Shown piece after piece: positions 5,145 through 48,559 of a DNA stretch of 58,287 bases. Where the stretch lies: positions 19,387 through 77,673 of the forward strand of contig PARQ01000001.1 of the NCBI GenBank assembly GCA_002711555.1, written 5' to 3'. The translations under genes and the position numbers were made by a program. Within the stretch, counting starts at the first letter, position 1. Every line of letters starts with the position of its first letter. Source of the stretch: Rhodospirillaceae bacterium (lineage in GTDB: Bacteria > Pseudomonadota > Alphaproteobacteria > UBA8366). The notes beneath the pieces are model-generated. The model did not search any database, had not been told where the DNA came from, and was given only the letters and a program-made list of their open reading frames with translations.

Positions 5145-5148
5145 ACTT

Positions 5149-6186: not shown

Positions 6187-6187
6187 A

Positions 6188-10559: not shown

Positions 10560-12049
10560 GTGCACCTGCATTCATGGTACAGGGCACGGGCTCTGAGGTT
10601 GGTAAATCCGTTATTACGGCGGGGTTGTGCCGTGTTCTTATGCGGAGAGGATTCACTGTGCGCCCCTTCAAACCGCAAAATATGTCAAATAACGCGGCAG
10701 TAACTTTGGATGGCGGTGAAATTGGGCGGGCTCAGGCATTGCAAGCTCGCGCATGTGGGGTGCCACCATCGTTTCATATGAACCCGGTTTTGCTCAAGCC
10801 TCAAACTGAAATCGGCGCTCAGTTAGTGGTCCAAGGGCATGTAATTGGGAATTTTGAAGCACGTGATTATACGTCAATTAAGCCAACTCTTTTGGAGCCG
10901 GTTCTGGAAAGTTTCTCTTTATTATCAGATCAAGCAGACGTTGTAGTTGTGGAGGGGGCCGGTAGCCCCGCTGAGATAAATTTGCGAGATGGCGATATTG
11001 CAAATATGGGTTTTGCCGAGGCATCTAACACCCCTGTCATCTTAATTGCTGATATTGAGCGTGGAGGGGTTATCGCAAATTTGGTTGGTACGTACGAAGT
11101 TCTTAGCGATACCGAACGTAAACGTGTTGTAGGATTTATCATCAACAAATTCCGTGGGGATAAGAGCCTATTCGATAAGGGCGCGATTGAGATTGAAAAT
11201 CGCACAGGTTGGTCATGTCTTGGTGTTGTGCCTTATTTTAAGGAAGCCGGAAAGTTGCCCGCTGAGGATGCCGTTCGACTTCAAAAGCCTGCGCGGACAG
11301 CAGCGGGGCATGGTGTCAAAATTGTGGTGCCTGTATTTTCACGGATTGCTAATTTTGATGATTTGGACCCATTTGGCGTAGAACCAGGAGTTTCTGTGCA
11401 ATTTGTAAGCCCAGGTGATGCGCTGCCTGGCGACGCAGACCTAATCGTCCTGCCAGGTTCAAAATCAACCCGTTCCGATCTCGAACTCGTATACAAGGAG
11501 CGCTGGGATGTTGATATTGATGCCCACGTTCGTAGAGGAGGTTGGGTTATTGGACTTTGTGGCGGATATCAGATGCTAGGAAAAAAGATTGTTGACCCCG
11601 ATGGCGTAGAGGGCCCAGCTGGAACAAGCAAAGGACTTGGCTATCTCGATGTTGAAACGGTTATCGCAGGTGATAAGACACTTCTACCAGCAGAGGGAAC
11701 CACTGCAGACGGTAATCACATAATCTCTGGGTATGAGATGCATATGGGACAAACAAACGGACCAGGCACCTCTCATCCAATGCTGTTAGCTTTACCCGGT
11801 GAGCAGCTGGACGGAGGTTCCATATGCTCACTAGGGCGAGTTATGGGTTGCTACCTACATGGCTTATTCAATAATGATACCTACCGAAGCTATCTTTTAT
11901 CCCAAATTACTGGGCAGGATCGTGGGAATGTTAATTTTGAAAATGTGGTGGAGACAACGTTAGATGGATTGGCTGAGCACTTGGAAAAACACCTGGACAT
12001 CCCTGCCATCGCAGATTTAGCCAGCCTTGATATAAATGAAACTGTTTAA
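10556..12049 (+). CDS. cobQ: Cobyric acid synthase CobQ
   Basis: A 497-residue glutamine-dependent amidotransferase that amidates four side chains of adenosylcobyrinic acid a,c-diamide. The N-terminal synthetase domain has QGTGSEVGKS (residues 9-18) and KPQNMSNNA. The C-terminal class I glutaminase domain has its nucleophile at about Cys335 (GLCGGYQ) and a CYLHG histidine near 440. The frame begins at a TTG overlapping the cobO stop codon; the next in-frame ATG (10574) would cut close to the P-loop, so TTG is preferred. It ends the recognisable cob operon, with a nitroreductase following. Confidence 0.95.
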   Translation: MSAPAFMVQGTGSEVGKSVITAGLCRVLMRRGFTVRPFKPQNMSNNAAVTLDGGEIGRAQALQARACGVPPSFHMNPVLLKPQTEIGAQLVVQGHVIGNFEARDYTSIKPTLLEPVLESFSLLSDQADVVVVEGAGSPAEINLRDGDIANMGFAEASNTPVILIADIERGGVIANLVGTYEVLSDTERKRVVGFIINKFRGDKSLFDKGAIEIENRTGWSCLGVVPYFKEAGKLPAEDAVRLQKPARTAAGHGVKIVVPVFSRIANFDDLDPFGVEPGVSVQFVSPGDALPGDADLIVLPGSKSTRSDLELVYKERWDVDIDAHVRRGGWVIGLCGGYQMLGKKIVDPDGVEGPAGTSKGLGYLDVETVIAGDKTLLPAEGTTADGNHIISGYEMHMGQTNGPGTSHPMLLALPGEQLDGGSICSLGRVMGCYLHGLFNNDTYRSYLLSQITGQDRGNVNFENVVETTLDGLAEHLEKHLDIPAIADLASLDINETV

Positions 12050-22220: not shown

Positions 22221-22604
22221 ATGGACATAAAATACATAGATCATTTCGTTCTAACCGTAAGGGATGTAGACACTATCTGTGAGTTTTACGAGCGCGTGCT
22301 TGGTATGACGGTGAAGACATTTGGCGAGGGGCGGAAAGCACTCCACTTTGGTAGCCAGAAGATTAACGTACACCCGCCTATCGGTTCTGGCCCTAGTCAT
22401 CGCGCCCGCAAGCCGGCTATTGGAGGGTCAGATTTCTGTCTTATAACCAAAGATTCAATGACAAATGTAGCTCAACATTTGAAGTCTGAAGGTGTATGCA
22501 TTGAGCTAGGTCCCGATAAGCGTTCTGGAGCCGTCGGGACAATCACCTCGATTTATTTTCGCGACCCAGACGGCAATTTAGTTGAGATATCAAATTATGA
22601 TTGA
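22221..22604 (+). CDS. VOC-family protein (glyoxalase/dioxygenase fold)
   Basis: A 127-residue single-unit vicinal oxygen chelate protein with HFVLTVRDVDTICEFYERVLGM at the N terminus and YFRDPDGNLVEIS at the C terminus. Likely metal ligands are His9, a mid-protein His and the C-terminal Glu. The family includes glyoxalases, fosfomycin-resistance enzymes and lyases; the substrate is unknown. Its last 8 bases overlap the start of the TauD-like gene (ATGATTGA), so the two are probably translated together and may act on related compounds. It follows rfbB by 20 bases. Confidence 0.83.
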   Translation: MDIKYIDHFVLTVRDVDTICEFYERVLGMTVKTFGEGRKALHFGSQKINVHPPIGSGPSHRARKPAIGGSDFCLITKDSMTNVAQHLKSEGVCIELGPDKRSGAVGTITSIYFRDPDGNLVEISNYD

Positions 22605-23445
22605 TGTAGTGCCCGTTTCGGAAGCTATAGGTGCTGAAATACGTGGTGTTAACCTTGGCTACATAGATACAAATACTCTTGACCAAATACAACAATCGTG
22701 GATCTCTCATTGTGTGTTGTTGTTTCGCGATCAGCAAATTACTGCCAGAGAGTTGGTTAAATTTAGTAAGCACTTCGGCGACCTTGATATCGCACCGCCA
22801 AACGAAAACGGGCAGGTAGGTGTCGACGGTTTTCCAGAAGTGCTCGTGCTGTCAAATGTCAAAGAAAACGGCCGGCCTATAGGTGCGCTCGGCAACGGCG
22901 AGGCGCAGTGGCACACAGATATGAATTATATCGATCAGCCCCCCTTAGGCAGTGTTTTGCTTGGTGTTGAGGTCCCCGATCAGGGTGGTAATACTGGGTT
23001 TTGTAATATGTACGGTGCTTTGGAAGAGTTGCCAGATTTGCTCCGCCGGCAGATTGACGGCCTTCAAATCAAGCACGATAGCTCAACTAATAGTGCCGGC
23101 CTCCTTCGCAAGGGTGCAGATTTGGTCACCGATGTTACGGCTTGCCCTGGCGCCGTCCATCCTATTGTCCGTACCCATCCGGAAACCGGACGCCAGGCGC
23201 TTTACCTCGGTCGGCGTCGGAATGCGTATATTATGGGTCTTCCTGCAGCAAATTCGGAGGCATTGCTTGACGATCTGTGGGCTCACGCTACACAGCCAAA
23301 ATATGCTTGGCACCATAAATGGCGAGAAGGTGACGTGATAATGTGGGATAACCGTTGTGTTATGCACAGGCGTGATAGTTTCGACGAAACTAAGCGGCGT
23401 ATTATGCATCGGACTCAGATTAAAGATGATCAGCTGGTTCAATAG
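22597..23445 (+). CDS. TauD/TfdA-family Fe(II)/2-oxoglutarate dioxygenase 1
   Basis: A 282-residue non-heme iron oxygenase that uses 2-oxoglutarate and O2. The facial triad appears as HTD in QWHTDMNY and the distal His in VMHRRDSF; the 2-oxoglutarate arginine follows in RRIMHRTQ. GAEIRGVNL at the N terminus and LFRDQQIT are typical of TauD. The start is the ATG at 22597 inside the end of the VOC gene; an in-frame TTG 15 bases earlier is less likely. It is one of three TauD-like genes in the window, each in a different neighbourhood. A convergent TSUP permease overlaps its 3' end by 7 bases. The substrate is unknown; taurine is not implied. Confidence 0.85.
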   Translation: MIDVVPVSEAIGAEIRGVNLGYIDTNTLDQIQQSWISHCVLLFRDQQITARELVKFSKHFGDLDIAPPNENGQVGVDGFPEVLVLSNVKENGRPIGALGNGEAQWHTDMNYIDQPPLGSVLLGVEVPDQGGNTGFCNMYGALEELPDLLRRQIDGLQIKHDSSTNSAGLLRKGADLVTDVTACPGAVHPIVRTHPETGRQALYLGRRRNAYIMGLPAANSEALLDDLWAHATQPKYAWHHKWREGDVIMWDNRCVMHRRDSFDETKRRIMHRTQIKDDQLVQ

Positions 23446-27056: not shown

Positions 27057-29711
27057 TTACAATCGGGTTGAGTCATCTCCTAGCATCTTACTAGTTATTT
27101 CAAAGACATTGCGAGATATCTCTTTGGTATTGAGAATATTTTCCAAGCACTTTTTGACAAGCAATTGTCTTTGTTTATCCAAACACCGCCAGCGTGATAA
27201 TGGCATCAAGAGCCTGGCGGCGATTTGAGGATTAATAGTATTAAGCTCAATAATTTGCTCGGTAAGAAATGCGTACCCCGCACCGTTCTTAGCGTGGAAT
27301 TGAACTTGATTGGAATTGCTGAATGCACCGATAAGCGCGCGAACCCTGTTTGGCGATTTAATTGAGTAGCTATCATTTTGCATTAATTCTTTTATTCGGG
27401 TTAGCGTACCATGTTTGAAGGATGTCGCCTGTAACGTAAACCATTTGTCTATAACCAAAGAATTACCTCGCCATTTCCTATGAAATATTTTCAGTGCTTC
27501 GTCTCGTTCGGGAGCACAACAATTATTCAATGCAATAAGCGAACCCATACAGTCTGTCATATTAGACGAGTTATCGAATTGTGCTTTGGCGATTTTTACA
27601 GTGTCGTGCCGATTAAGCGCAGCAATGTAGTAAAGAGCTACATTCCTTAGGCGTCTTTGAGCAACTTGGATAGCAGTGTAACGGTAGGTTTCTCTCGTGG
27701 TGTGGCGCTGGTAGACCCTGAATAGCTGTTTTTCAAGTCTTTTGGCGATTTGTTCACGAATAGTTTCGCGAGCTATATGAATGCCATCAATGTTTATTGG
27801 CTTTTGAATATCTGCAAGTTCGGTTTCTAGCGGCAACCCTAATATTTCGGCAACCAGCGCCGGGTCTGTTTTTTCATCCTCAAGCAGTTCCCTTAAGGAG
27901 TCAGTATATACCTTAATATTTTTTTCTTTCGGTGGTCCATCATCAATTGTTGTAAAAATCAACCGTTTGGCCAGTATCTGCGATGCTTCCCATCGATTAA
28001 AAGGGTCATCATCATTTCTCATGAGAAAAGCAAGTTTTTCTGATGAAGGGTTTTCTTTTGATAACCACTCTATCTTTACTGGGGCCGAAAAATTACGGAG
28101 TAGAGATAGTTTGGGCGGACTACCTATATTTTCAAATGTGAACGACTGCTTTCTTCTCTTTAATTCAAGAATTTTTTCGGTTGCGCCGTCTGCACTGAGC
28201 GGTGTTCGATCTCCATTAGCGTTTAGTAAGGCAACGCGAATAGGAATGTGAAGGGGCTTTTTTTCGGTCTGTCCCTGGGTTGGTTCTGTGAGCTGATGAA
28301 TAGTCAAGGTGTAAGATTGCTTATCCTCGTTAAAAGTGTCACCAACGAAAAGTGTAGGGGTCCCAGACTGTGAATACCAAATACGGAATTGACTAAGATC
28401 GAAATTATTAGCATCTTCCATTGCAGAAACAAAATCATTACAAGTGACCGCATGGCCATCGTGGCGCTCAAAATAAAGGTCCATTCCTTTACGAAAACCG
28501 TTTGCACCCAATAATGTGTGCATCATTCGGATAACTTCAGCGCCTTTTTCGTAAACCGTTGCGGTATAGAAATTATTTATCTCTATGTATGATTCGGGTC
28601 GGATAGGGTGGGCTAGTGGGCTCGCATCCTCTGGAAACTGCCGCGCACGCAGTGTTTTTACCGCCTTGATGCGCTCCACGGCTGCTGAAGACATATCAGC
28701 AGAAAATGCTTGGTCACGAAAGACCGTTAGTCCCTCTTTGAGGCTGAGTTGGAACCAATCGCGGCAGGTCACTCTATTGCCAGTCCAGTTGTGGAAATAC
28801 TCATGTGCAATTATCGACTCAATCAGAGCATAATCCATGTCAGTCGCAGTTTCAGGATCGGCGAGAACATATTTGTCATTGAAGAGGTTAAGACCCTTAT
28901 TCTCCATGGCGCCCATGTTAAATGCGCTTACGGCTACGATCATGTAAACATCTAAATCATACTCAAGACCAAAAACTTCCTCATCCCATCTCATCGCCTT
29001 GATAAGACATTTCATAGCATGACGCGCCTGTACTTCTTTCCCAAGGTCAACGAATATTTTAAGCGCTACGTTACGTCCTGATGCGGTTATAAATTCATCT
29101 TGCAAGCAGCCAAGATTCCCTGCAACTAATGCGAAAAGATACGATGGTTTTGGGTATGGGTCTTCCCATAATGCTAAGTGTGTCCCATCTCTGAAAGTCT
29201 TGGTGTTGGTACAATTTCCATTCGAGAGAAGTATTGGGTACTTTTTTTTATTTCCGGTTATTTGTGTTCTGAATCGCGCAAGAATATCTGGTCGGTCCAA
29301 GTACCAAGTAATGCGGCGGAAGCCCTCGGCTTCACATTGGCTACAGAAGATCCCATTTGATTTATAGATTCCCTCAAGCTGGGTATTTTTTTGGGGTTTT
29401 ATAATTACAGAAGTCTCTAGGATAAATTTCTCTGGCGGGTCACTGATGACGAGTTCATTTTTTGTAACCGTATATTTTTCGCTTTCCAACTTATGTCCAT
29501 CAATTGCAACCCACTGAGTTTTGAGTTGTTCACCATTAAGTACTAGCGCCACATGTGGGTGACCGGCAGTTGGATTGCGGTGTACTTGGAGTTCGGCTAC
29601 TACCTCAGTGGAGGTTTCCCCAAGCTTAATATCAAGAAACACGTCATCTATCAGAAAGGCCGGTTGCTTATAATCGACTAGTAAAATAGGAATTGGGCAT
29701 TCGGTCTTCAT
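27057..29711 (-). CDS. pepN: Aminopeptidase N
   Basis: An 884-residue M1 zinc metallopeptidase of the proteobacterial PepN size. It has the exopeptidase motif GAMENKG and the zinc site HEYFHNWTGNR with a downstream Glu in LKEGLTVFRDQ. It removes N-terminal residues from peptides in the cytoplasm. A DUF3458-type C-terminal helical region follows the catalytic domain. The ATG overlaps the stop codon of the upstream metallo-beta-lactamase gene in an ATGA junction, so the two are translationally coupled. It ends 100 bases before the next gene. Confidence 0.94.
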   Translation of the reverse strand: MKTECPIPILLVDYKQPAFLIDDVFLDIKLGETSTEVVAELQVHRNPTAGHPHVALVLNGEQLKTQWVAIDGHKLESEKYTVTKNELVISDPPEKFILETSVIIKPQKNTQLEGIYKSNGIFCSQCEAEGFRRITWYLDRPDILARFRTQITGNKKKYPILLSNGNCTNTKTFRDGTHLALWEDPYPKPSYLFALVAGNLGCLQDEFITASGRNVALKIFVDLGKEVQARHAMKCLIKAMRWDEEVFGLEYDLDVYMIVAVSAFNMGAMENKGLNLFNDKYVLADPETATDMDYALIESIIAHEYFHNWTGNRVTCRDWFQLSLKEGLTVFRDQAFSADMSSAAVERIKAVKTLRARQFPEDASPLAHPIRPESYIEINNFYTATVYEKGAEVIRMMHTLLGANGFRKGMDLYFERHDGHAVTCNDFVSAMEDANNFDLSQFRIWYSQSGTPTLFVGDTFNEDKQSYTLTIHQLTEPTQGQTEKKPLHIPIRVALLNANGDRTPLSADGATEKILELKRRKQSFTFENIGSPPKLSLLRNFSAPVKIEWLSKENPSSEKLAFLMRNDDDPFNRWEASQILAKRLIFTTIDDGPPKEKNIKVYTDSLRELLEDEKTDPALVAEILGLPLETELADIQKPINIDGIHIARETIREQIAKRLEKQLFRVYQRHTTRETYRYTAIQVAQRRLRNVALYYIAALNRHDTVKIAKAQFDNSSNMTDCMGSLIALNNCCAPERDEALKIFHRKWRGNSLVIDKWFTLQATSFKHGTLTRIKELMQNDSYSIKSPNRVRALIGAFSNSNQVQFHAKNGAGYAFLTEQIIELNTINPQIAARLLMPLSRWRCLDKQRQLLVKKCLENILNTKEISRNVFEITSKMLGDDSTRL

Positions 29712-30622
29712 TTCATTCTGCCCAATGGGGTAAACCGGTCCGTTTCCTCCAGCTCACCGTGACAGAAAGCTCGTTTTGTTTCGACCATGTGCACCAGGTG
29801 GGCATGTACAGCTCGACAGGCGCCTCGGTAAAGCCGTGGGTCTAATCCTTTGTACATCTCAGCAACCAGCATCTCTACACTCTCAAGCCCTTTTTCAAGA
29901 TAAGTACTTATTTGTTTTTCACGGTCCCGGCGATGAGCAATGAGCTTACTGACGTAGGCATGAGGTTTATCGATAAAAGTCCCGTGATTTGGCCAATATC
30001 GTGTTTCACTTCGCTTAAGCAATTTCTCGAGTGAACGGATATAAGAGCCCATATCTCCGTCGGGAGCTGAGACAACTGTAGTTGACCATCCCATTACGTG
30101 ATCCCCACTAAAGAGCACATTGTTTTCTTTAAGAGAATAGCAGAGATGGTTGGAAGCATGGCCGGGTGTATGCACTGCTTCAAGAGACCAGGTTTTGCCG
30201 CGGATGATGTCTCCATCATTCAAAAAGACATCTGGTTGAAAGTCGTAATCGCCGTTTCCGACACCGAATTCAAGCCCTCGATCTTTGCCGTGCTGTCCGT
30301 AGCCATAGGTAGTGGCTCCAGTAGCAGGTTTAAGGAGTTGGGTGTTAGGGGAATGGTCAGAATGGGTATGTGTGATAAAAATATGAGTAATGTTCTCGCC
30401 TTTTGTGGCGGCCAGTATCGCATCTACATGTTTTTCGTCGAGTGGTCCCGGGTCAATCACCGCCACGTCACCATGCCCAACGATGAAGGTGCCTGTACCA
30501 CGGAAGGTAAATGGACTGGGGTTTTCAGCAATCACCCTGCGGATTAAGGGGGATAGAACATCTGGTACGCCATATTCGAAATTAAAATCTCGTTTGTGGG
30601 GAATTATTACTCGTTGTCCCAT
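29708..30622 (-). CDS. Metallo-beta-lactamase-fold hydrolase
   Basis: A 304-residue MBL-fold protein. The zinc motif THTHSDHSP (near 105-113), a GHASNHLCY histidine, SGDHVMGWS and a final NHGT segment give the usual two-metal site. The winged-helix-like C terminus (VHAHLVHM) resembles the LACTB2/RNase Z-like group rather than glyoxalase II. It is coupled to pepN by an ATGA overlap. Its ATG at 30622 follows AGAGGGC about 9 bases upstream. Function in the cell unknown; a nuclease or thioesterase is possible. Confidence 0.85.
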   Translation of the reverse strand: MGQRVIIPHKRDFNFEYGVPDVLSPLIRRVIAENPSPFTFRGTGTFIVGHGDVAVIDPGPLDEKHVDAILAATKGENITHIFITHTHSDHSPNTQLLKPATGATTYGYGQHGKDRGLEFGVGNGDYDFQPDVFLNDGDIIRGKTWSLEAVHTPGHASNHLCYSLKENNVLFSGDHVMGWSTTVVSAPDGDMGSYIRSLEKLLKRSETRYWPNHGTFIDKPHAYVSKLIAHRRDREKQISTYLEKGLESVEMLVAEMYKGLDPRLYRGACRAVHAHLVHMVETKRAFCHGELEETDRFTPLGRMK

Positions 30623-30768
30623 ATATAAAAGCCCTCTTTATTATCATTTGCATTAGGCTTCATCAATTGTCCCTGTCAAGGGTATCGACTAAGTTATAGG
30701 CAGTTTGGATTGTGGGGATAGTCAGATACCCTAAATTTAGCATTCGTTTTCAATAAGAGGTATAATTA

Positions 30769-32553
30769 ATGTTTACAACGCGTCCAGAACTACTCGGCAC
30801 TTTTGGCATGGTGTCTACCACTCATTGGCTGGCTTCGGCTGCTGGAATGTCGATGCTTGAGAGGGGTGGAAACGCTTTTGATGCTGCAGTTTGCGCAGGA
30901 TTTGTTTTACATATTGCTGAACCTCACCTTAATGGTCCAGGGGGTGATATGCCTGCGATAATTCACGTTGCAGGTGAGCAGGAACCTAAGGTTGTCTGTG
31001 GTCAGGGGCCCGCTCCAGCGGGTGCTACAATGGCGTATTATCGCGATAAACTTGGTCTCGAGCTCGTGCCAGGCACCGGCCTTTTGGCGACGGCAGTACC
31101 GGGTGCAGTTGATGGTTACCTATTGATACTGCGGGATTATGGTGCTCTCGACCTTGAGGATGTTCTTGCTCCGGCGATCTACTATGCAGAGCATGGCGCA
31201 CCTATCGTGCCTAATGTCCACAATACCATAAGTGGCGTGAAAGAGATATTCCGTAATCATTGGCCTACCTCACAGCCAATATATATGCCAAATGGGGAGG
31301 TGCCGAAGCCGGGGTCCCTTCTAGGGAATGAGGGGATTGCCAAGACTTGGACGCGATTGATCGCTGAGGCTAAGTCAGCGGGGGGTGATCGGCAGGCGCA
31401 GATCGAAGCAGCAAGAGATACTTGGGGCAACGGTTTTATTGCTGAAGAAATCGATAAATTCTGCCGTGAAAATGAAGTCATGGATGCCTCAGGAAAGGCT
31501 CATCGTGGCGTGCTTACTGGCGATGACATGGCTAAATGGCGTGCATCTTATGATACTCCGTTAACGTATGATTTCTGTAATCACACTATTTTTAAAATAG
31601 GTCCTTGGAGCCAGGGGCCCGTTCAACTCCAGCAACTAGCTTTGCTGAAAGGGCTCGGGATCGAGGACATGGATACTGAGGGTAGCGAATTTATTCACGC
31701 GGTAACTGAATGTGCAAAACTCGCGTTTGCTGACCGGGAGACGTTCTACGGTGACCCAAAGTTCGTGGATGTACCAATGGATATATTACTGTCGGATCCT
31801 TATAATGATGAAAGACGTAAACTGATTGGTGAAACCGCCTCACTGGAGTTCCGGCCTGGCCAGGTGGATGGATATGGAGGTTCTGTAAACTATCAAGCCG
31901 CCATAAATAGCGCAGCCATTGCAAGGTCAAATCTGGCTGGCATTGGCGAGCCTACTGTTGGTCGACCATCAAATGGAGATACCTGTCACATCGACGTCAT
32001 TGACAAGGATGGTAATATGATCGCAGCAACGCCTTCCGGCGGCTGGTTGCAAAGCTCCCCGGTCATCCCAGCACTCGGCTTTTGCCTAGGCTCACGTATG
32101 CAGATGTTTTGGCTCGAGGACGATAAGCCGGCGAGCTTAATGCCTGGGAAACGTCCGCGGACAACCCTCACCCCATCCATGGCATACCGTGATGGAAAGC
32201 CCTACATGGCATACGGTACGCCAGGAGGAGATCAGCAGGATCAATGGCAGACAAATTTCTTGATCAGGCATGTAGCACATGGTCTTAACTTGCAGGAGTC
32301 AATTGATACGCCTTCCTTTCATAATGAACACCACCCAAGTTCATTTTATCCTCGGCAGGCTTCGCCTGGGCGTCTTGTGATTGAGGGAAGGTTTTCAGAG
32401 AACACCCAAAAAGATCTCAAAAACCGTGGTCACGACCTTGAGGTTGCAGGTGATTGGTCCGAAGGTCGAATGTGCGCGGTAGCGCTTGATAGAGGCATTC
32501 TGAAAGCTGCTGCTAATCCACGCGGAATGCAAGGCTATGCTGTTGGCCGGTAG
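30769..32553 (+). CDS. Gamma-glutamyltransferase-family Ntn-hydrolase
   Basis: A 594-residue N-terminal-nucleophile enzyme. The autocleavage site is NGDTCHIDV near residues 402-410; the Thr would become the N terminus of the small subunit. GGNAFDAAV and GPGGDM near the N terminus and TTLTPSM further on are family landmarks. The usual SSS/PSSGG pocket reads PSGGW. No signal peptide is seen, whereas periplasmic Ggt has one, so this is more like the cytoplasmic YwrD/acylase group. The RBS AAGAGGT is 9 bases from ATG. It starts the tight run that includes a G3E GTPase and aconitase X. Substrate is unknown. Confidence 0.85.
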   Translation: MFTTRPELLGTFGMVSTTHWLASAAGMSMLERGGNAFDAAVCAGFVLHIAEPHLNGPGGDMPAIIHVAGEQEPKVVCGQGPAPAGATMAYYRDKLGLELVPGTGLLATAVPGAVDGYLLILRDYGALDLEDVLAPAIYYAEHGAPIVPNVHNTISGVKEIFRNHWPTSQPIYMPNGEVPKPGSLLGNEGIAKTWTRLIAEAKSAGGDRQAQIEAARDTWGNGFIAEEIDKFCRENEVMDASGKAHRGVLTGDDMAKWRASYDTPLTYDFCNHTIFKIGPWSQGPVQLQQLALLKGLGIEDMDTEGSEFIHAVTECAKLAFADRETFYGDPKFVDVPMDILLSDPYNDERRKLIGETASLEFRPGQVDGYGGSVNYQAAINSAAIARSNLAGIGEPTVGRPSNGDTCHIDVIDKDGNMIAATPSGGWLQSSPVIPALGFCLGSRMQMFWLEDDKPASLMPGKRPRTTLTPSMAYRDGKPYMAYGTPGGDQQDQWQTNFLIRHVAHGLNLQESIDTPSFHNEHHPSSFYPRQASPGRLVIEGRFSENTQKDLKNRGHDLEVAGDWSEGRMCAVALDRGILKAAANPRGMQGYAVGR

Positions 32554-32562
32554 GGCTCTTTT

Positions 32563-33570
32563 ATGCTGACTTCGGTACCAACCAATCTAATAACTGGATT
32601 TCTTGGTGTTGGGAAGACAACCGCCATTCGCTCTATTTTAGGTCGCAAACCGCCCCATGAGGAATGGGCGGTAGTGGTCAACGAATTCGGAGAAATTGGC
32701 ATAGATGGTACTATGTTCGATGGAGAATCTGAGCAAATCCGTATGGTGCCGGGTGGATGCATATGTTGTGTATCTAATGTTGCGATGGGAGTGGCCCTTA
32801 CAGATCTTATACGACGTCAGCGACCAGACCGAATCCTTATTGAGCCCACGGGTCTTGGTCACCCCGCTGGTGTACTAGACCTATTACGTAGGTCCGAACA
32901 AGCTGGTCAAATTGACTTGCGTGCAACTTTGTGTCTTGTAGATCCGCGCAGGGTCAACGAACTAAGTGTCGGTGAATCCGAGGTATTTCAAGATCAGATT
33001 CATATGGCAGATGTTCTCATTGGACATAAATGGGATCTATCGAATAACGTGGATAAAGAAGCATTTCAGGCATGGGCGTCAGGGATGTTCCCGCCAAAAG
33101 TTCACTTTACCTCAGCTAGTAATGGGCTTATTGATTTGGAACTTCTCGATCTCAATCTCGATCCTTCACGTACGCCTCTTTTTCCCGAGGCCCATGCGGC
33201 AAATCATCGGCACGGACTAAAGGGAGAACCGGATTTGGCTCCAAATCGACCACTGCACTTCAAAACCGAGGGAGATGGATACGTTTCATGCGGTTGGTTA
33301 TTCTCACCGTCAGATGTATTTAATCGACGTAATTTGCTCAACTGGGCTGAGGATATAAATGGCATCTCGCGGTTAAAGGGCGTTTTCCGTACAGGACGTC
33401 ATTGGATGTTAGTTAATCGATCCGACGATGAAATGGGAAAGGCGACTATTGCGTATCGCCGAGACAGCCGAGTTGAAATTATAGCCAAAAAAGAGAAGAT
33501 GCCAGACTGGGACGATGTTGGGGCGAGCCTCCTTGCATGTTTGCGACTTCGTGGTATGAAAGAAATATGA
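32563..33570 (+). CDS. CobW-like G3E GTPase 2
   Basis: A 335-residue G3E GTPase with the P-loop GFLGVGKT near residues 10-17, GGCICC near 64-69 as its metal motif, EPTGLGHP and a CobW C-terminal domain. It has no His-rich linker. It is not in the cob operon but lies 9 bases after the gamma-glutamyltransferase-like gene and overlaps the aconitase X large subunit by 4 bases (ATGA). Family members hand metal ions to apoenzymes. The tight coupling suggests it serves an enzyme of this operon, most simply aconitase X or the Fe-dependent TauD. That is inference. Confidence 0.88.
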   Translation: MLTSVPTNLITGFLGVGKTTAIRSILGRKPPHEEWAVVVNEFGEIGIDGTMFDGESEQIRMVPGGCICCVSNVAMGVALTDLIRRQRPDRILIEPTGLGHPAGVLDLLRRSEQAGQIDLRATLCLVDPRRVNELSVGESEVFQDQIHMADVLIGHKWDLSNNVDKEAFQAWASGMFPPKVHFTSASNGLIDLELLDLNLDPSRTPLFPEAHAANHRHGLKGEPDLAPNRPLHFKTEGDGYVSCGWLFSPSDVFNRRNLLNWAEDINGISRLKGVFRTGRHWMLVNRSDDEMGKATIAYRRDSRVEIIAKKEKMPDWDDVGASLLACLRLRGMKEI

Positions 33571-34814
33571 AACTTGATGACATAGAAAAGGCTATGCTCG
33601 ATGGAAAACACGGAAAAGCCGCCGCCTGGGCGATAGAGTTTCAAAAGGATGTTGGCACTTTTTTTGATGCGGAAGATTTTGTTCCCATACGGCTTGTTCA
33701 TGTCAGTACTGACAGAGAGACTATGGGTGATAGTGGCATTGCGTTCATAGAGGAGCTAGGAAATCTACGGCCAAGCGAACGTTATCCGCGAGCATACGCA
33801 ACCGCTGATTTTCGGGGTTTTGATAAGGAAAACTTCAGTTTTCTATTACCTGGACGAAACTTGGAGGTAGAGGGTACACAGGCAGTCGAAGCTCTCGGTA
33901 AACTCGGAGTTGTTACTAACCATGCCTATGTTAATGACCACTCCGTCACTGCGCCTGGTTTTGGCGAGGCTTGCGGTTATAGTGGCACACCCTCGGTCAT
34001 ATATATGAACAGTATCGTTGGAGCGCGTTGTAACTTTGAGGCGGGCCCATCAAGTTTAGCTGCTTTCTTTACTGGTCGAGTTCCTCGATACGGTTTTCAC
34101 TTGGATTCCAAACGGTTTGCCACTCATGGCTTTAAACTTGATTTTTCCCCAGCAAACATCGTCGACTGGGGTGTTGTCGGCGCACTTATAGGCAGAGAGT
34201 TAAATTCATATTGGTGCGTGCCAGCTCTTGAGCTAACTGGCCCACTACCCTCGGTGTTGGAGCTAAATCATATGGCATTGGCAATGGCGAGCTATGGCTC
34301 GATCGCAATGTTTCACGTTGTGAATGTTACACCTGAGGCTCCCAATTGGGAAACTGCGGCGGGAGGGAAAAAACTTGATGTTAAGACCATTAATTCCAAT
34401 CATGTAAAGACGTTTTATCAGGAGTGGGGTGGAATTGGTGAGGATCTAGACGTGGTTGCTTTATCCACGCCACAATTGACTGTAACTGAAATCATCGAAG
34501 TTGCCGCTTTGCTTGAGGGTAAAAGGGTCCATGACAGAACCACGCTGCTGATATACGCCCCCAAAGAAATTAAACAAGCATGCGCTCGTATAGGTCTTAC
34601 TCAGATGATCGAAAAGGCGGGTGCACGGATGGTGCACGGGCATGATTTTTTTGCGACCTTTGCGAAGGAAATACGCTTGGCACATAAATGGGATCGGTTA
34701 ATGACTCATTCAGTAAAAATGGTAAATATTTGTGAAGGATATGGCTACCGACCGACCCCAGCATCAATTCAGCGTTGCATACAATCGGCTGTCGAGGGAA
34801 AGGTGATTGGATGA
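33567..34814 (+). CDS. Aconitase X catalytic (large) subunit
   Basis: A 415-residue protein of the DUF521/AcnX family, begun by LDDIEKAMLDGKHG. Landmarks are HVSTDRETMGDSG, GRNLEVEGTQAVEALGKLGV, CGYSGTPSVIYMNSIVGARCNFE and C-terminal THSVKMVNICEGYGY with a Cys. Bacterial two-subunit AcnX enzymes studied so far dehydrate cis-3-hydroxy-L-proline; archaeal forms act on mevalonate 5-phosphate. The ATG overlaps the G3E gene by 4 bases and the small subunit starts 4 bases inside its end. The proline substrate is suggested by family only. Confidence 0.88.
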   Translation: MKLDDIEKAMLDGKHGKAAAWAIEFQKDVGTFFDAEDFVPIRLVHVSTDRETMGDSGIAFIEELGNLRPSERYPRAYATADFRGFDKENFSFLLPGRNLEVEGTQAVEALGKLGVVTNHAYVNDHSVTAPGFGEACGYSGTPSVIYMNSIVGARCNFEAGPSSLAAFFTGRVPRYGFHLDSKRFATHGFKLDFSPANIVDWGVVGALIGRELNSYWCVPALELTGPLPSVLELNHMALAMASYGSIAMFHVVNVTPEAPNWETAAGGKKLDVKTINSNHVKTFYQEWGGIGEDLDVVALSTPQLTVTEIIEVAALLEGKRVHDRTTLLIYAPKEIKQACARIGLTQMIEKAGARMVHGHDFFATFAKEIRLAHKWDRLMTHSVKMVNICEGYGYRPTPASIQRCIQSAVEGKVIG

Positions 34815-35239
34815 GTTTACTGGAAATTAAAGGACACTTAGGGATTGGTCCCATAGCACGTGGTATTGCTCTAGCAGCGTCCGATGATTTCAGCACGCGT
34901 TACGACTTAGATCGTGATAGCGGAATATTTTCACGCCCAAGTCACAAGTTGTATGGGGAAGAATTTGTTGGTCGTATTTTGGTGCTTAACGCAGCGAAAG
35001 GGGGTGTAGCATCAGCATGGATGCTGCGTGAGATGGTCGAAAAAGAAAAGGCTCCTCTTGGCCTTCTCCTCAATGATGGAAATCCTGTTATGGCGCAAGG
35101 AGCAGCATTTGCACAGATACCGTTTATGGATCGCTTCGATGTAGACATTACTAGCGCTATATCCACAGGTGATGAGATAGAGATTGTTCCAGCACGAGGC
35201 ATTGTTAAAATCCTTTCAAGAGTTAAGGCTAAGGGGTAA
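34811..35239 (+). CDS. Aconitase X swivel (small) subunit
   Basis: A 142-residue protein of the DUF126 family, the swivel domain of AcnX, with GPIARGIALAASDDFS near the N terminus and NAAKGGVASAWMLREM in the middle. It completes the active site of the large subunit. The ATGA overlap with the large-subunit gene fits stoichiometric translation. TauD-2 starts 11 bases downstream after a strong GGAGG site. Confidence 0.88.
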   Translation: MSLLEIKGHLGIGPIARGIALAASDDFSTRYDLDRDSGIFSRPSHKLYGEEFVGRILVLNAAKGGVASAWMLREMVEKEKAPLGLLLNDGNPVMAQGAAFAQIPFMDRFDVDITSAISTGDEIEIVPARGIVKILSRVKAKG

Positions 35240-35250
35240 GGGAGGAATCC

Positions 35251-36132
35251 ATGGAAGTTGCTAAAAAAGGTTTTAATGCAGAGGTTACGTTTACACCTGC
35301 TACTGAGCACATAGGGTCTGAGGTGTCAGGGATTGATCTCGCCAATCCGTTGCCTGAGCCAGTTTTTCAAAAAATCCAGAGAGAGTTGTACGATCGTAGC
35401 GTTCTTATATTTCGTGATCAGAATTGGTCGCCAGACGAGCACATTGAATTTTCCAAGCTGTTCGGTCCGTTAGAAAATCATGTTTTAAGTAATTATTGTC
35501 TCCCAGGTCATCCAGAAATATTTGTCGTTTCGAACATAATCGAAAACGGCAAGCATGTTGGTGCATTCGGGGGTTCGAAACGGTACCACTCTGACCTGTC
35601 ATATATGAAGGAGCCAAGTCTAGGTTCTATCTTCCATTGCCTTGAATGTCCCGAGGGTGAAGGCGAAACTTGCTTCACAAGTATGTTTGCAGTTTATGAA
35701 GCGTTACCTGAGGAGCGCAAAAAATGGCTTCTTAAAAGAATGGGAGTGCATGACTATGTATGGAATTTTGAGAACCATCACAACGACCGCCCTCCTCTAA
35801 CTGATGAGCAAAAGGCATCCACACCGCCCTTATCGCACCCTGCAGTGATTAGTCATCCCGAAACGGGCCGTAAAGCACTTTATTTGTCTGCTGTTTTTGT
35901 TCGCTCTTTCGAAGGTATGGAAGATGCGGAAAGCCAAGAAATAATTCATGAGCTGATAGATTTTGCGAGTCAGGCAAAATTTGAATATGTACACCGGTGG
36001 ACGCCAGGTGATGTCATTATATGGGATAATCGAAGCGTTTTGCATAAGGCTCTGCCATTTGATGAGAAAAATGCCCGTCGTCGGATGCATCGCACCACGA
36101 TTCGTGGTTCTCGGCCTACATTGGCTGTTTAG
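35251..36132 (+). CDS. TauD/TfdA-family dioxygenase 2
   Basis: A 293-residue Fe(II)/2-oxoglutarate oxygenase. GSEVSGIDL near the N terminus, HSD in RYHSDLSY (the facial HxD), the distal His in VLHKALPF and an Arg in RRMHRTTIRG make the active site complete. Its ribosome site GGGAGG stands 6 bases before the ATG. It lies between the aconitase X small subunit and an MBL hydrolase, so it may hydroxylate or release the compound that AcnX handles. Substrate unknown. Confidence 0.86.
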   Translation: MEVAKKGFNAEVTFTPATEHIGSEVSGIDLANPLPEPVFQKIQRELYDRSVLIFRDQNWSPDEHIEFSKLFGPLENHVLSNYCLPGHPEIFVVSNIIENGKHVGAFGGSKRYHSDLSYMKEPSLGSIFHCLECPEGEGETCFTSMFAVYEALPEERKKWLLKRMGVHDYVWNFENHHNDRPPLTDEQKASTPPLSHPAVISHPETGRKALYLSAVFVRSFEGMEDAESQEIIHELIDFASQAKFEYVHRWTPGDVIIWDNRSVLHKALPFDEKNARRRMHRTTIRGSRPTLAV

Positions 36133-36144
36133 AGAATAGCGGTA

Positions 36145-36945
36145 ATGGATAACTGGGAAATTTACGTACTCAAATATGCGGAGCGTACCAATGCGTTAAA
36201 ACATGAACATTTTTTATTTACGGATGCGCACAATGGTCCCATGCCAATGGATTATTTTATTTGGGCACTTAAAAATGAACAAGGCCGTGTGATTATCGTA
36301 GATATGGGATTTGAAGAAAAAGAGGGAAAAAAACGTGGGCGGCGGCTACTCCGTACGCCGGCGGAGGCACTCGCGAAGGTTAGGATAGATGCTAGCGAAG
36401 TTGAGGACCTCGTCGTCAGCCACATGCATTACGATCATTGTGGCAATGCACATGAATTCCCCAAGGCGACATTTCATATACAAGAACGTGAGATGGCTTT
36501 TGCAACAGGGCCTAATATGAAACATCCGGCTTTCCGTGATATTTTTGCCGTTGACTATGTGGTAGATATGGTTCGCGCACTTTTCGGTGACAGGGTCGAG
36601 TTTGTCCACGGTTTTAAGGAATTAGCGTCTGGAATAACGCTACACCACGTTGGTGGGCATACCGATGGTCTGCAGGTGGTACGTGTTAATACCCAGCGCG
36701 GTTGGGTAGTGCTTGCAGTCGATGCTATCCATCTGTATGCCAACATTGAACAAAAAAATCCTTTCCCGTTGGTTTTAAACGTTGCTGACATGTTGAATGG
36801 GTATAGTACCATCAGTAACTTGGCAGACTCGCCAACACATATTATCCCTGGTCACGATCCAATGGTTTTAGATAGATTTCCGAAAGTTCCTGGTGCAGAG
36901 GAATTCGCGGTCCGGGCTGATCTTGTTCCAAACCATTGGAATTGA
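36145..36945 (+). CDS. MBL-fold lactonase-like hydrolase
   Basis: A 266-residue metallo-beta-lactamase-fold protein with SHMHYDHCGN (HxHxDH) near residue 92, HVGGHTDG as the next histidine, an Asp in AVDAIHLY and IPGHDP. It resembles N-acyl-homoserine lactonases of the AttM/AiiA type, which open lactones, but no luxR/luxI-type genes are present. In this run a lactone or amide step of a catabolic pathway is more plausible than quorum quenching. It closes the six-gene series 13 bases after TauD-2. Confidence 0.83.
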   Translation: MDNWEIYVLKYAERTNALKHEHFLFTDAHNGPMPMDYFIWALKNEQGRVIIVDMGFEEKEGKKRGRRLLRTPAEALAKVRIDASEVEDLVVSHMHYDHCGNAHEFPKATFHIQEREMAFATGPNMKHPAFRDIFAVDYVVDMVRALFGDRVEFVHGFKELASGITLHHVGGHTDGLQVVRVNTQRGWVVLAVDAIHLYANIEQKNPFPLVLNVADMLNGYSTISNLADSPTHIIPGHDPMVLDRFPKVPGAEEFAVRADLVPNHWN

Positions 36946-37007
36946 TTACTTGAAAGACAACCGCTGAAACGCTACGTCGTCACTGTGGCGTACTTACAGA
37001 GAGGGTT

Positions 37008-37973
37008 ATGAAAATGGGTCATCATCACAGTAAAGTCTTGATCATTGGATCTGGGGCTGCGGGCTACACCGCTGCAATTTACGCAGCTCGCGCGAATCTA
37101 AAGCCACTTATTGTTGCTGGAATGCAGCCCGGCGGGCAGATGACCATAACTACAGATGTTGAGAATTACCCGGGATTTGAGGAGGTTATACAGGGTCCTT
37201 GGCTGATGGAGCAGATGCAAAAACAGGCTGAGGCTGTTGGGACCCAGATAATTTATGACATGATTAACGATGTCGATTTTACTCAGGATACTTTTCAAAT
37301 GACTGGCGATATGGGAGATACGTACAGCGGTGAAACTGTTATTATTGCGACTGGTGCCCAAGCGCGCTGGCTTGGCCTCGAATCAGAACAAAAATTTCAA
37401 GGTTTTGGTGTATCAGCCTGTGCTACATGCGATGGCTTCTTTTTCAAGGATCAAAACGTTGCGGTGGTTGGGGGAGGTAATACTGCTGTAGAAGAGGCAT
37501 TATACCTTACAAACCATGCTGCCAAAGTCACAGTCATACACAGGCGAGATACGTTCCGAGCTGAAAAAATACTTCAGGAGCGATTACTTCAGAACGAAAA
37601 AATTGAAGTGATTTGGGATAGTGTCGTCGACGAGGTATTGGGCGGGGGTGATCCACTTCAGGTCACTGGAGCTCGCATTAAAAATATTAAATCGGAACAA
37701 ATAATGGATATTGATTTACAGGGTGTTTTCATAGCTATTGGGCATGACCCAGCGACTGGGGTATTTAAGAATAAAATTGATATGGATGATGAAGGTTATA
37801 TCTTAACCAAGCCCGATAGTACGGTAACTAGCATACCTGGTATTTTTGCTGCTGGTGATGTTAAAGATAAGATCTTTCGGCAAGCGGTTACGGCTGCTGG
37901 AATGGGTTGCATGGCTGCTTTAGAAGCTGAAAAGTTTCTTGCCGAACACGAGATGTCCACGGCCGCGGAATAG
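37008..37973 (+). CDS. trxB: Thioredoxin reductase
   Basis: A 321-residue low-molecular-weight thioredoxin reductase: an FAD motif GSGAAGYTAA near 13-22, the redox CATC in SACATCDGFFF near 136-146, an NADPH motif GGGNTAVEEA, and the C-terminal GIFAAGDV with RQAVTAAGMGC. Reduces thioredoxin with NADPH. The RBS GAGAGGG precedes the ATG; a second ATG lies two codons later. The N-terminal HHH after MKMG is a little unusual. It converges with the dehydrogenase gene, 31 bases apart. Confidence 0.95.
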   Translation: MKMGHHHSKVLIIGSGAAGYTAAIYAARANLKPLIVAGMQPGGQMTITTDVENYPGFEEVIQGPWLMEQMQKQAEAVGTQIIYDMINDVDFTQDTFQMTGDMGDTYSGETVIIATGAQARWLGLESEQKFQGFGVSACATCDGFFFKDQNVAVVGGGNTAVEEALYLTNHAAKVTVIHRRDTFRAEKILQERLLQNEKIEVIWDSVVDEVLGGGDPLQVTGARIKNIKSEQIMDIDLQGVFIAIGHDPATGVFKNKIDMDDEGYILTKPDSTVTSIPGIFAAGDVKDKIFRQAVTAAGMGCMAALEAEKFLAEHEMSTAAE

Positions 37974-38004
37974 ACGCATCAAAATCAAATCCGACCCATT
38001 CATA

Positions 38005-38901
38005 TTAAAGCTTGGTTTTTCTTGTCTCCTGAAGAAGCTTTGCTAGCATGGTATGATCAGACGAAGGTCCGTAATGGTCAACTGTTTCGGCAAATGCATC
38101 TCGCACCAAAGCCGTGCACGGCGCACTCAAGCCGACATTACGCGCTAAATTCTGGGCAATAGTTAAGTCTTTAAGCATTAAGCCGCTCGAAAACCCAGAT
38201 TTCCAATTCTCTTTTAGAATAAACTGATGCATCTTTAGTTCGGTTGCATTGTTTCGGCCTGATGACTTATTTATGACGTTAGTTAATGTTGACGGGTCCA
38301 GTCCAAAACGTCGACCTATCAAGAGTGCTTCCGTAGTTGCTAGAACGCCAAGAGCAGAAAGCATATTATTCATCGCCTTAGTTGCATGACCGGCACCAAG
38401 TGGCCCGCATTCAAAAATATCGCTGCTTACTGCTTCAAAAATAGGTTTCGCCCGAGCTATTGCAGCGCTCTCCCCGCCAACCATGATAGAAATGGTGCCT
38501 GAAACTGCACGTTTCACTCCACCAGAAACAGGAGCATCTAGAAAGGGAATATTTTTATCTTTCATGATTTTTCCGAGTTCTAGTGTTCCCTCCGGCTCTG
38601 ATGAGCTCATATCAATAAATAACTTACTGCTATCGAGCCCACTGATAAGTGAGTCCTCGCAATTAGCGTCGCCGAGCAATATTCTATTTACATCCTTGCC
38701 GGTAGGTACAATGGTAATAACTACATCGGAGCTCTGTGCCAGACTATGGAGGCCATTGGCCGCGCGCGCACCAAACTCATCGACAAAGCTATCTACTGCT
38801 TCCCGGTTCAAATCAAAAACAATCATTTCATTGCCAGCGCGTGCGAGATTTGCGGCTATCGGGCGCCCCATATTGCCGAGACCAACATATCCTATTTTCA
38901 T
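38005..38901 (-). CDS. 3-Hydroxyisobutyrate dehydrogenase-family protein
   Basis: A 298-residue beta-hydroxyacid dehydrogenase. The N-terminal Rossmann motif GYVGLGNMG, the substrate loop DAPVSGGVKRA, the catalytic lysine in GHATKAMNNMLS and LMLKDLTIAQ are all present. The family oxidises 3-hydroxyisobutyrate, tartronate semialdehyde, or related acids with NAD(P). mmsA lies 1.2 kb away, so valine degradation is possible but not proven, since the two genes are on opposite strands. The ATG at 38901 has TAGGAA upstream; the ATG at 38922 adds seven residues. Confidence 0.85.
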   Translation of the reverse strand: MKIGYVGLGNMGRPIAANLARAGNEMIVFDLNREAVDSFVDEFGARAANGLHSLAQSSDVVITIVPTGKDVNRILLGDANCEDSLISGLDSSKLFIDMSSSEPEGTLELGKIMKDKNIPFLDAPVSGGVKRAVSGTISIMVGGESAAIARAKPIFEAVSSDIFECGPLGAGHATKAMNNMLSALGVLATTEALLIGRRFGLDPSTLTNVINKSSGRNNATELKMHQFILKENWKSGFSSGLMLKDLTIAQNLARNVGLSAPCTALVRDAFAETVDHYGPSSDHTMLAKLLQETRKTKL

Positions 38902-47473: not shown

Positions 47474-48325
47474 CTAAGCGACGTAAGCTGGCAATTCGCC
47501 ACTTACTTGCGTTCGGTAAAGAACGCGGCGAAATTTTTCTGAATCGTACGGCGTGGCTGAATGAAGAGTGCACCTATTGTCCCATATTACAAGGTCGCCA
47601 GGGTACCACTTGTGGCGATAAACGAAATCGTCATTATCTAAGAGACCCTCAATCTCTTCCATCAATGCCCACGTGGTTTTCTGATCTAATTCTCCAATGG
47701 TTCGAATTATTTCCTTATATAGAAATACTGATTTTTTCTCCGTAACTGGATGTGTAATCACAGCTGGATGCTCCACAGGTGGTACGCTTGCCAATTGTGA
47801 TTTGGTTAACGGCGGACGCTCGGGATAGAGAGCTGAATAGCGGTAATTGCGATCATGCACTGCCATTTTACCCTCAATCTGTATTCGGATCCTATTTGGG
47901 AGACTTTCATATAAGCGACGCATGTCTGCGAAAATAGTATCGCCCCCTTCGGATGGACACTCAATTCCATAGAGCAGCGTTACGTAGCCGGTCTTCTTCA
48001 AATAGGAAAGGTCTGAATGCCAAAAGTTACCGCCTCTGAATGCGCCAACCAGCTTGCCGTCTTTCTTTACGTTAGAAAGTACCCGCACCTCGGGGTATTC
48101 GGGGAATGTGTGCTCAGCAAGGTGGTGAACGTCAGGCTTTCCCCAGAGTTTGGTAAATGAAGATAGTGCTGATGGTGTTAATTTTTGCTTTGAAAAATAG
48201 ATTACTCCAAATTTATTTAGTGCCGTTTGAATTTTGGTAAATGTTTTTTCTCCGATTGGTCCGGCAAGGTCAACACCAGTGATTTGCGCAATAAAGTCAT
48301 TTTGCATTGGATTGATTGTTGTCAT
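47474..48325 (-). CDS. TauD/TfdA-family dioxygenase 3
   Basis: A 283-residue Fe(II)/2-oxoglutarate oxygenase. ITGVDLAGPI near the N terminus, WHSDLSY (HxD), the distal His in CTLHSATPY and Arg in RRVLYRTQVSG complete the active site. It leads a leftward operon with a cupin, a bicupin and a crotonase, so it probably starts or feeds a catabolic sequence. The start is uncertain: ATG 48325 gives MTTINPMQN, ATG 48337 adds four residues, and neither has a strong ribosome site. It is divergent from mtnA over 234 bases. Confidence 0.84.
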   Translation of the reverse strand: MTTINPMQNDFIAQITGVDLAGPIGEKTFTKIQTALNKFGVIYFSKQKLTPSALSSFTKLWGKPDVHHLAEHTFPEYPEVRVLSNVKKDGKLVGAFRGGNFWHSDLSYLKKTGYVTLLYGIECPSEGGDTIFADMRRLYESLPNRIRIQIEGKMAVHDRNYRYSALYPERPPLTKSQLASVPPVEHPAVITHPVTEKKSVFLYKEIIRTIGELDQKTTWALMEEIEGLLDNDDFVYRHKWYPGDLVIWDNRCTLHSATPYDSEKFRRVLYRTQVSGELPAYVA

Positions 48326-48559
48326 AAATGGGCCCATTGGAAATCTTTTAAAAAATACGAGGTACAATCGCTCTTGAGTGAACGTTGCGAAAATAGCCTA
48401 AAGTTATCAACACGGGAAGATACCTTATCAGAAGCAATTGTATTTTACAGAGTGAACCAAGCAAGTGAGGAGTGTCTGCCTTTGGATTTTCAATAATATT
48501 AAGAGGAAAAGAAAAAGAAGCAACGTAGACTTTACTTTGACATGAAGGGGCTACATTCT

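Follow-up and report, generated by a model that had tools for sequence, protein, structure and literature searches.

Introduction

The characterised kinds of AcnX (types I, IIa and IIb) have an iron-sulfur (Fe-S) cluster, and two papers on the family (PMC8184944 and PMC10040528) ask which cluster each subfamily has. For the type IIb enzymes, represented by TkAcnX from Thermococcus (structures 7cnr and 7cns) and by the Aeropyrum mevalonate 5-phosphate dehydratase PMDh, PMC8184944 assigns the cluster ligand roles to cysteine residues of TkAcnX. Here, we describe an AcnX pair encoded within a run of six genes (30769-36945, forward strand) in a 58,287-nucleotide stretch of Rhodospirillaceae bacterium DNA (assembly GCA_002711555.1, contig PARQ01000001.1, positions 19,387 to 77,673), the whole of which we refer to as the window. 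Judged from its residues, this AcnX cannot ligate an Fe-S cluster as the known enzymes do. The reading we favour, to which we give a probability of roughly 0.55, is that the run represents a G3E-AcnX(large-small)-TauD group set between two older neighbours, a Ggt-like gene and a gene for a metallo-beta-lactamase-fold (MBL) hydrolase, and that the AcnX would carry a mononuclear metal site.

The nearest relatives of the window AcnX, at approximately 40% identity, are uncharacterised bacterial AcnX proteins with two cysteines (here the CC type), which share its two-gene architecture and its small-subunit motifs. The CC type is possibly to be found among types IIc-IIf of PMC8184944. The CC type is defined by Cys121 and Cys360 and has Asp140, whereas the type represented in the window (here the HH type) has Tyr, Asp/Glu/Cys and Gly (or Ala/Ser) at these respective positions, together with His119 and His125.

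Active site of the window AcnX

The large subunit (33567-34814, + strand; 415 aa) matches PF04412 (AcnX) with 265 bits; we took its start as the ATG at 33567, and the open reading frame list opens it 30 bases earlier. The gene for the small, swivel subunit overlaps it (34811-35239, + strand; 142 aa from the ATG at 34811) and matches PF01989 (AcnX_swivel_put) with 67 bits. The pair thus comprises both the catalytic and the swivel domain, in the type II arrangement split over two genes, which places it within the family and separates it from the type I fusion seen in AtAcnX. The large subunit has a predicted AcnX fold and is 25-28% identical to the Thermococcus structures in structural alignments.

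Within this fold the residues that hold the cluster in characterised AcnX are gone. The stretch His119-Ala-Tyr121-Val-Asn-Asp-His125 (codons at 33921-33941, + strand) places Tyr121 at the cluster ligand Cys110 of TkAcnX and contains two new histidines, His119 and His125. Thr301 (34467-34469, +) stands at the ligand Cys283, and Asp360 (34644-34646, +), which we propose as a carboxylate metal ligand, stands at the ligand Cys342 of TkAcnX and Cys508 of AtAcnX. Together with Phe362, these residues fill the cysteine ligand positions of both enzymes, such that Cys273, Cys508 and Cys510 of AtAcnX are all absent. The catalytic residues have changed as well, with Gly140 (33984-33986, +) at Glu129 of TkAcnX, a position occupied by Asp in the CC type, and with Gly65 of the small subunit at the base, Ser62 of the TkAcnX small subunit. 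No cysteine occurs anywhere in the small subunit. What is retained is Lys384 (34716-34718, +), the counterpart of the catalytic Lys361 of TkAcnX and Lys530 of AtAcnX.

The initial annotation had given 3-hydroxyprolines or mevalonate 5-phosphate as substrates of AcnX, and neither activity is supported for this protein. We rejected cis-3-hydroxyproline dehydratase on the grounds that the NCBIfam model for that enzyme scores 128 bits against a cut-off of 700 and that neither its Fe-S ligands nor its catalytic Glu nor its base Ser is present, and mevalonate-5-phosphate dehydratase on the grounds that the Fe-S ligands, Glu129 and the base Ser62 of that enzyme have all been replaced.

Classes and phylogeny of AcnX

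We used two short peptide patterns to scan genome contigs and kept the best 80 of 201 loci, of which 12 (L001-L012) are of the HH type and 68 of the CC type; both subunits are present in all 80. A search of 43 genomes of the taxonomic order of G001 added one more (G050), giving 14 HH-type genomes with the window included. Both HH and CC copies are found in 8 of these 43 genomes among the classified loci, so the HH type is in those genomes an added enzyme and not a substitute.

A set of 188 sequences, made up of the 80 loci and the window together with proteins of at least 380 aa, near-duplicates included, was sorted by columns 119, 121, 125 and 360, which are consequently uniform by construction. 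It resolved into 101 CC, 82 HH-D and 5 HH-C sequences with none unassigned. Among the independent HH-D columns we count Tyr121, Asn123 and Lys384 (82/82 each), His357 (80/82), Asp124 (79/82), and His359 and Gly140 (78/82 each). Asp140 occurs in 101/101 CC sequences, and Lys384 is kept in 87/87 HH rows. A later search added one HH-C sequence beyond the first five, as well as a further state, HH-E (P0241, P0243 and P0244), with His119, Tyr121, His125, Ser140 and Glu360. A comparison of 155 rows (154 proteins plus the window) comprises 76 HH-D, 63 CC, 6 HH-C and 3 HH-E sequences, five that are gapped at the trait columns and two (P0071 and P0086) with a disrupted end at 360. Among the 15 columns compared, the three HH states have in common His119, Asn123, His125, Lys384 and one of Cys, Asp or Glu at 360.

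In the first of two trees, based on 57 chosen rows, CC, HH-C and HH-D are separated by two changes and the branch to the HH clade measures 1.0 changes per column. A second tree of 44 chosen rows, built after removal of nine trait columns, has the topology (HH-E,(HH-C,HH-D)) with 98-100% support, and a single clade uniting the carriers of Asp and Glu was rejected on it (approximately unbiased test, p-AU 0.005). Given this topology, Cys360 was most simply replaced twice, by a carboxylate each time. By these sequence criteria the HH proteins are one clade and a new AcnX subclass, position 360 being occupied by Cys, Asp or Glu.

Gene order and origin of the run

The six genes all point rightwards and are separated by 9, -4, -4, 11 and 12 bases, as the initial annotation had noted and the open reading frame coordinates bear out. 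From this spacing, co-transcription of the six is likely. A consensus scan of 30500-38100 returned 9 promoter-like sites against a shuffle mean of 12.4, and 2 terminator-like sites, both on the opposite strand, against 7.7, and so neither is in excess. Against two relatives, the ratio of nonsynonymous to synonymous substitution (dN/dS) is 0.05-0.22 across the six genes, with AcnX at 0.065-0.085 and G3E the loosest at 0.19-0.22, which indicates purifying selection. The order also recurs in other metagenome-assembled genomes, and we conclude that these are genuine genes under selection.

Of the 14 HH genomes, 6 have the order Ggt-G3E-AcnX-TauD-MBL, namely the window, L001, L002, L137, L004 and L005 (for those loci listed also as genomes, L002 is G049, L004 is G044, L006 is G030, L007 is G031, L009 is G032, L010 is G029 and L137 is G050). 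These carriers fall in two sub-lineages of one taxonomic order, and among the HH-type genomes found the gene order did not recur at greater distance. L004 and L005 have a second TauD gene, and in L001 (7939-10001; also L102) the G3E gene is cut to about 0.28 kb, with only its first and last pieces left beside an intact AcnX, which could be a real deletion or an assembly error. The remaining 8 HH genomes have the AcnX pair in other surroundings. It adjoins enolase-family and RidA-family genes in L003, an OsmC-domain gene in L006 and a cupin gene in L007 and L009. In L011 (7671-11652) and L012 (7671-11661) a gene for a molybdopterin hydroxylase large subunit overlaps the AcnX gene, with no partner subunit of that hydroxylase seen adjacent in the same operon. 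No near co-directional gene lies beside the pair in L008, and in L010 the contig ends upstream of AcnX and no TauD gene lies downstream.

The genes at the two ends of the run appear to be older neighbours. Ggt orthologs 64-69% identical to that of the window occur in G003-G006 and G011. At L082 the window order (aminopeptidase-like, MBL with a BLACT_WH domain, Ggt, MBL, TrxB-like, HIBADH-like) is present with Ggt and MBL adjacent and the other four genes absent; the names aminopeptidase and TrxB are putative and judged from the sequences. In L081 Ggt and MBL are separated by a single gene on the opposite strand, and other genes stand between them in L084/L125 and L083/L126. In G003 and G011 the interval is about 11.5 kb and contains what we assume, again from the sequences, to be branched-chain amino acid transporter-like genes and others. 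The short Ggt contig of G004 has no MBL gene, and TauD orthologs (57-64%) lie elsewhere in the genomes of G003-G006. We therefore infer that the four central genes (G3E, AcnX large and small, TauD) were gained here rather than lost elsewhere, and the run looks like an assembly made in this lineage itself, which may not represent a single pathway. Compared with the window, the G003 and L005 proteins are respectively 75 and 73% identical for AcnX, 68 and 78% for Ggt, 58 and 73% for MBL, and 61 and 74% for TauD. That the G003 AcnX is as close as that of L005 despite its more distant Ggt, MBL and TauD gives a hint of transfer.

The initial annotation had called the six genes almost certainly one unit and had placed them in one catabolic pathway, in which Ggt or MBL would open the substrate, TauD hydroxylate it and AcnX dehydrate it, with the G3E protein maturing a metal enzyme. 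Its description of the packing stands and co-transcription is likely, as stated above, whereas the single pathway is supported only in part and we regard it as doubtful. The tight, partly overlapping spacing speaks for it, as does the persistence of the order in six genomes across AcnX identities down to 73% (L005), where synonymous sites are near saturation. A Ggt-family gene also lies in the fetched flanks of 5 of the 68 CC-type AcnX loci (one a weak, partial match) against about 0.8 expected from 56 Ggt matches in approximately 70.5 Mb (14 genomes) and 1.01 Mb of flank DNA, but this count pools loci that are related to one another and matches accepted at two different E-value limits (1e-8 and 1e-30). 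Conversely, Ggt, MBL and the TrxB-like gene share the L082 locus without the other four, TauD orthologs lie elsewhere, and AcnX has other neighbours in 8 of the 14 HH genomes. Since the contents of the Ggt-MBL interval differ between lineages, a pathway shared by AcnX with Ggt and MBL is less likely, and since the flanks (the divergent MBL, TrxB-like and HIBADH-like genes) show as much conservation as the six genes themselves, the order alone is weak evidence. The prospect that the genes rarely co-occur elsewhere, which the initial annotation had named as counting against its own reading, is largely what we find beyond those 6 of 14 genomes. A peptide- or proline-derived substrate had been proposed from general family functions and draws no support from these data. 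The literature on AcnX and Ggt likewise yielded no characterised pathway with this set of genes, in agreement with the initial annotation.

Partner genes and surroundings

Pfam confirms the family name of each of the six genes, and none of the six exceeds any curated specific cut-off in NCBIfam, so family-level names alone are safe. Motifs were checked in five of the six, all with positive outcome; in the small subunit KG..A served for position only.

The Ggt-like Ntn-hydrolase (30769-32553, +; 594 aa; PF01019, G_glu_transpept, 374 bits) has a GDTC motif with Thr405 (31981-31983, +) as the expected autoprocessing and catalytic nucleophile, Asp404-Thr405 being aligned with Asp420-Thr421 of 6j3a. 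This is the closest solved relative (674 bits, in two stretches that jointly span the protein) and is probably LmbA2991 of Streptomyces lincolnensis, which fits the residue numbering (Asp420-Thr421, with Ala421 in 6j3i). PMC5519988 describes the Asp-Thr processing and nucleophile role in LmbA2991-like enzymes, and reports for LmbA2991 the hydrolysis of a C-C bond releasing oxalate in vitro, with its own role unclear according to the authors. The window Ggt resembles these enzymes over its whole length and has the same processing site; oxalate release belongs to LmbA2991, to which the window protein is tied by sequence relation only. It falls below the gamma-glutamyltransferase cut-off (equivalog TIGR00066, 251 bits against 357.85), and given its proximity to an LmbA2991-like C-C hydrolase, gamma-glutamyl compounds need not be its substrates. 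Elsewhere, Ggt-family genes lie near CC-type AcnX genes in L022 (8273-9985), L029 (9729-9971), L037 (8321-10147) and L038 (14528-16339), that of L022 being directly upstream of AcnX in the same direction and called as two open frames.

The G3E (COG0523/CobW-like) GTPase (32563-33570, +; 335 aa; Pfam cobW, 138 bits) has the Walker A motif GFLGVGKT (GxxGxGKT) at residue 12 and CICC (CxCC) at residue 66, as expected of a G3E protein. As CobW itself it was rejected (TIGR02475, 94 bits against a cut-off of 332). A CobW above this cut-off (5179-6186; 459 bits with the same model) lies in a cobalamin synthesis cluster at 4644-12049, the other genes of which have putative names.

The TauD-family Fe(II)/2-oxoglutarate dioxygenase (35251-36132, +; 293 aa; PF02668, 215 bits) has the HxD motif, and is not confirmed as taurine dioxygenase (NF007104, 176 bits against a cut-off of 313). 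Two further genes of the window, at 22597-23445 and 47474-48337, are presumably TauD-like as well, and the genome of the relative G003 has 55 TauD matches at E <= 1e-40. The lactonase-like MBL hydrolase (36145-36945, +; 266 aa; PF00753, Lactamase_B, 46 bits) has the HxHxDH motif and is not confirmed as an N-acyl homoserine lactonase, scoring 52-56 bits with the AiiA, AttM and AidB equivalogs against cut-offs of 360-390. An MBL-fold gene 45% identical to it is divergent from the CC-type AcnX pair in L065 (7634-8422, -).

Outside the run, a gene that we take to be trxB-like (thioredoxin reductase-like; 37008-37973, +) begins 62 bases after the MBL gene and belongs with Ggt and MBL to the older set of neighbours, and a divergent MBL protein with a BLACT_WH domain (29708-30622, -) adjoins Ggt in all carriers of the order and in L081-L085. 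Further away, an enolase-superfamily gene (57041-58012) exceeds the NCBIfam cut-off for the N-acetyl-D-Glu racemase DgcA (468 against 400).

Discussion

The HH AcnX is probably an Fe-S-free, metal-dependent hydro-lyase, with the metal and the reaction proposed from residue patterns. In the mechanism that we envisage, one divalent metal ion, be it iron, zinc, manganese or cobalt, would be bound by His119, His125 and the carboxylate of Asp360 where the cluster used to sit, with Glu as the ligand at 360 in one sister HH lineage and Cys in another. This putative 2-His-1-carboxylate site is drawn from the conservation of His119, His125 and Asp/Glu360 (Cys360 in HH-C). The bound metal could act as a Lewis acid, the role of the open iron of the cluster in other aconitases, and Lys384 would still protonate the hydroxyl group as it leaves. 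Most likely, a small hydroxy-carboxylate is dehydrated, hydrated or isomerised as part of a catabolic route. A possible source of the metal in this lineage is the G3E protein, encoded by a gene that overlaps the AcnX gene. TauD may take the compound of AcnX, or a neighbouring one, as its substrate.

The surroundings of the CC type provide some context for such a substrate. Of 81 loci, 14 include in their same-strand stretch a family that we take to be tripartite tricarboxylate receptor-like, and 5 include a presumed TRAP transporter-like family. All of these loci are CC-type, and they point to carboxylate catabolism as a role of the wider family. Downstream of acnS in the CC-type loci L026, L045, L058 and L059 lie what are presumably parts of succinate dehydrogenase/fumarate reductase and a class I fumarase-like enzyme (only the first of these in L058), suggesting a dicarboxylate pathway.

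We put forward a more specific history only tentatively, at slightly less than even odds. It holds that the cluster was discarded and the site rebuilt as a mononuclear 2-His-1-carboxylate site (2-His-1-Cys in one sister lineage), that the intermediates are still living, and that a dedicated G3E metallochaperone joined. His119 and His125 would have been gained as Cys121 and the acid at position 140 were lost, and the last Cys ligand would later have become Asp in one line and Glu in another.

Several observations weigh against a mononuclear site served by G3E. An earlier proposal of a mononuclear Fe in type I AcnX (PMC5144071) later gave way to a [2Fe-2S] cluster (PMC8184944), which is a caution for proposals such as ours. 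Three cysteines that are new in HH-D approach fixation there (Cys136 in 81/82, Cys155 in 76/82 and Cys389 in 79/82) and could serve a shifted cluster. The base Ser is gone from the CC type too. Finally, G3E is absent from the AcnX operon in 7 of the 14 HH genomes (the eighth of those outside the shared order, L010, is cut upstream), and in four of the seven, the whole draft genomes G003-G006, the best match is partial, at E 3e-21 and 29-41% identity, or there is none. Taken together with the remnant in L001, this does not support the suggestion in the initial annotation that G3E is a general maturase for AcnX.

It may be that the HH AcnX is metal-free, with His119 and His125 as acid-base residues and possibly an isomerisation or decarboxylation as the reaction, which we consider unlikely. 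Histidine suits an acid-base role as well as a ligand role, and Tyr121, which lies between the two histidines, is another new residue, invariant in HH-D and in all three HH-E rows. However, position 360, an Fe-S ligand in characterised AcnX, varies only among Cys, Asp and Glu, all of which are metal-binding. Retention of an Fe-S cluster, through Cys136, Cys155 or Cys389 or through mixed His/Asp/Cys ligands, seems to us distinctly improbable. The characterised types all have a cluster and, besides the near fixation of the new cysteines in HH-D, Cys155 is present in all three HH-E rows. Nevertheless, HH-E has Thr136 and Val/Leu389, HH-C has Thr389 in 5/5, Gly136 in 2/5 and Ser155 in 3/5 sequences, the small subunit has no cysteine to offer, and none of the new cysteines is among the columns common to the HH states. 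That the HH AcnX is a non-catalytic binding or regulatory protein is very improbable, since the loss of the base, of the acid Glu/Asp and of the cluster ligands of the known enzymes, together with the long branch to the HH clade, is set against the presence of both subunits at all 80 loci, the invariant Lys384, the low dN/dS and the new conserved residues that occupy the former ligand positions.

The change in the active site marks, by sequence, a new AcnX subclass, while the six-gene pathway reading is weak. If a mononuclear site is correct, it would argue against the labels 'predicted aconitase', carried by several relatives, and hydroxyproline dehydratase. Fold and Fe-S cluster are treated as coupled in aconitases, and the HH clade would then show a route by which an Fe-S enzyme can escape dependence on Fe-S, with intermediate forms accessible to expression and measurement.

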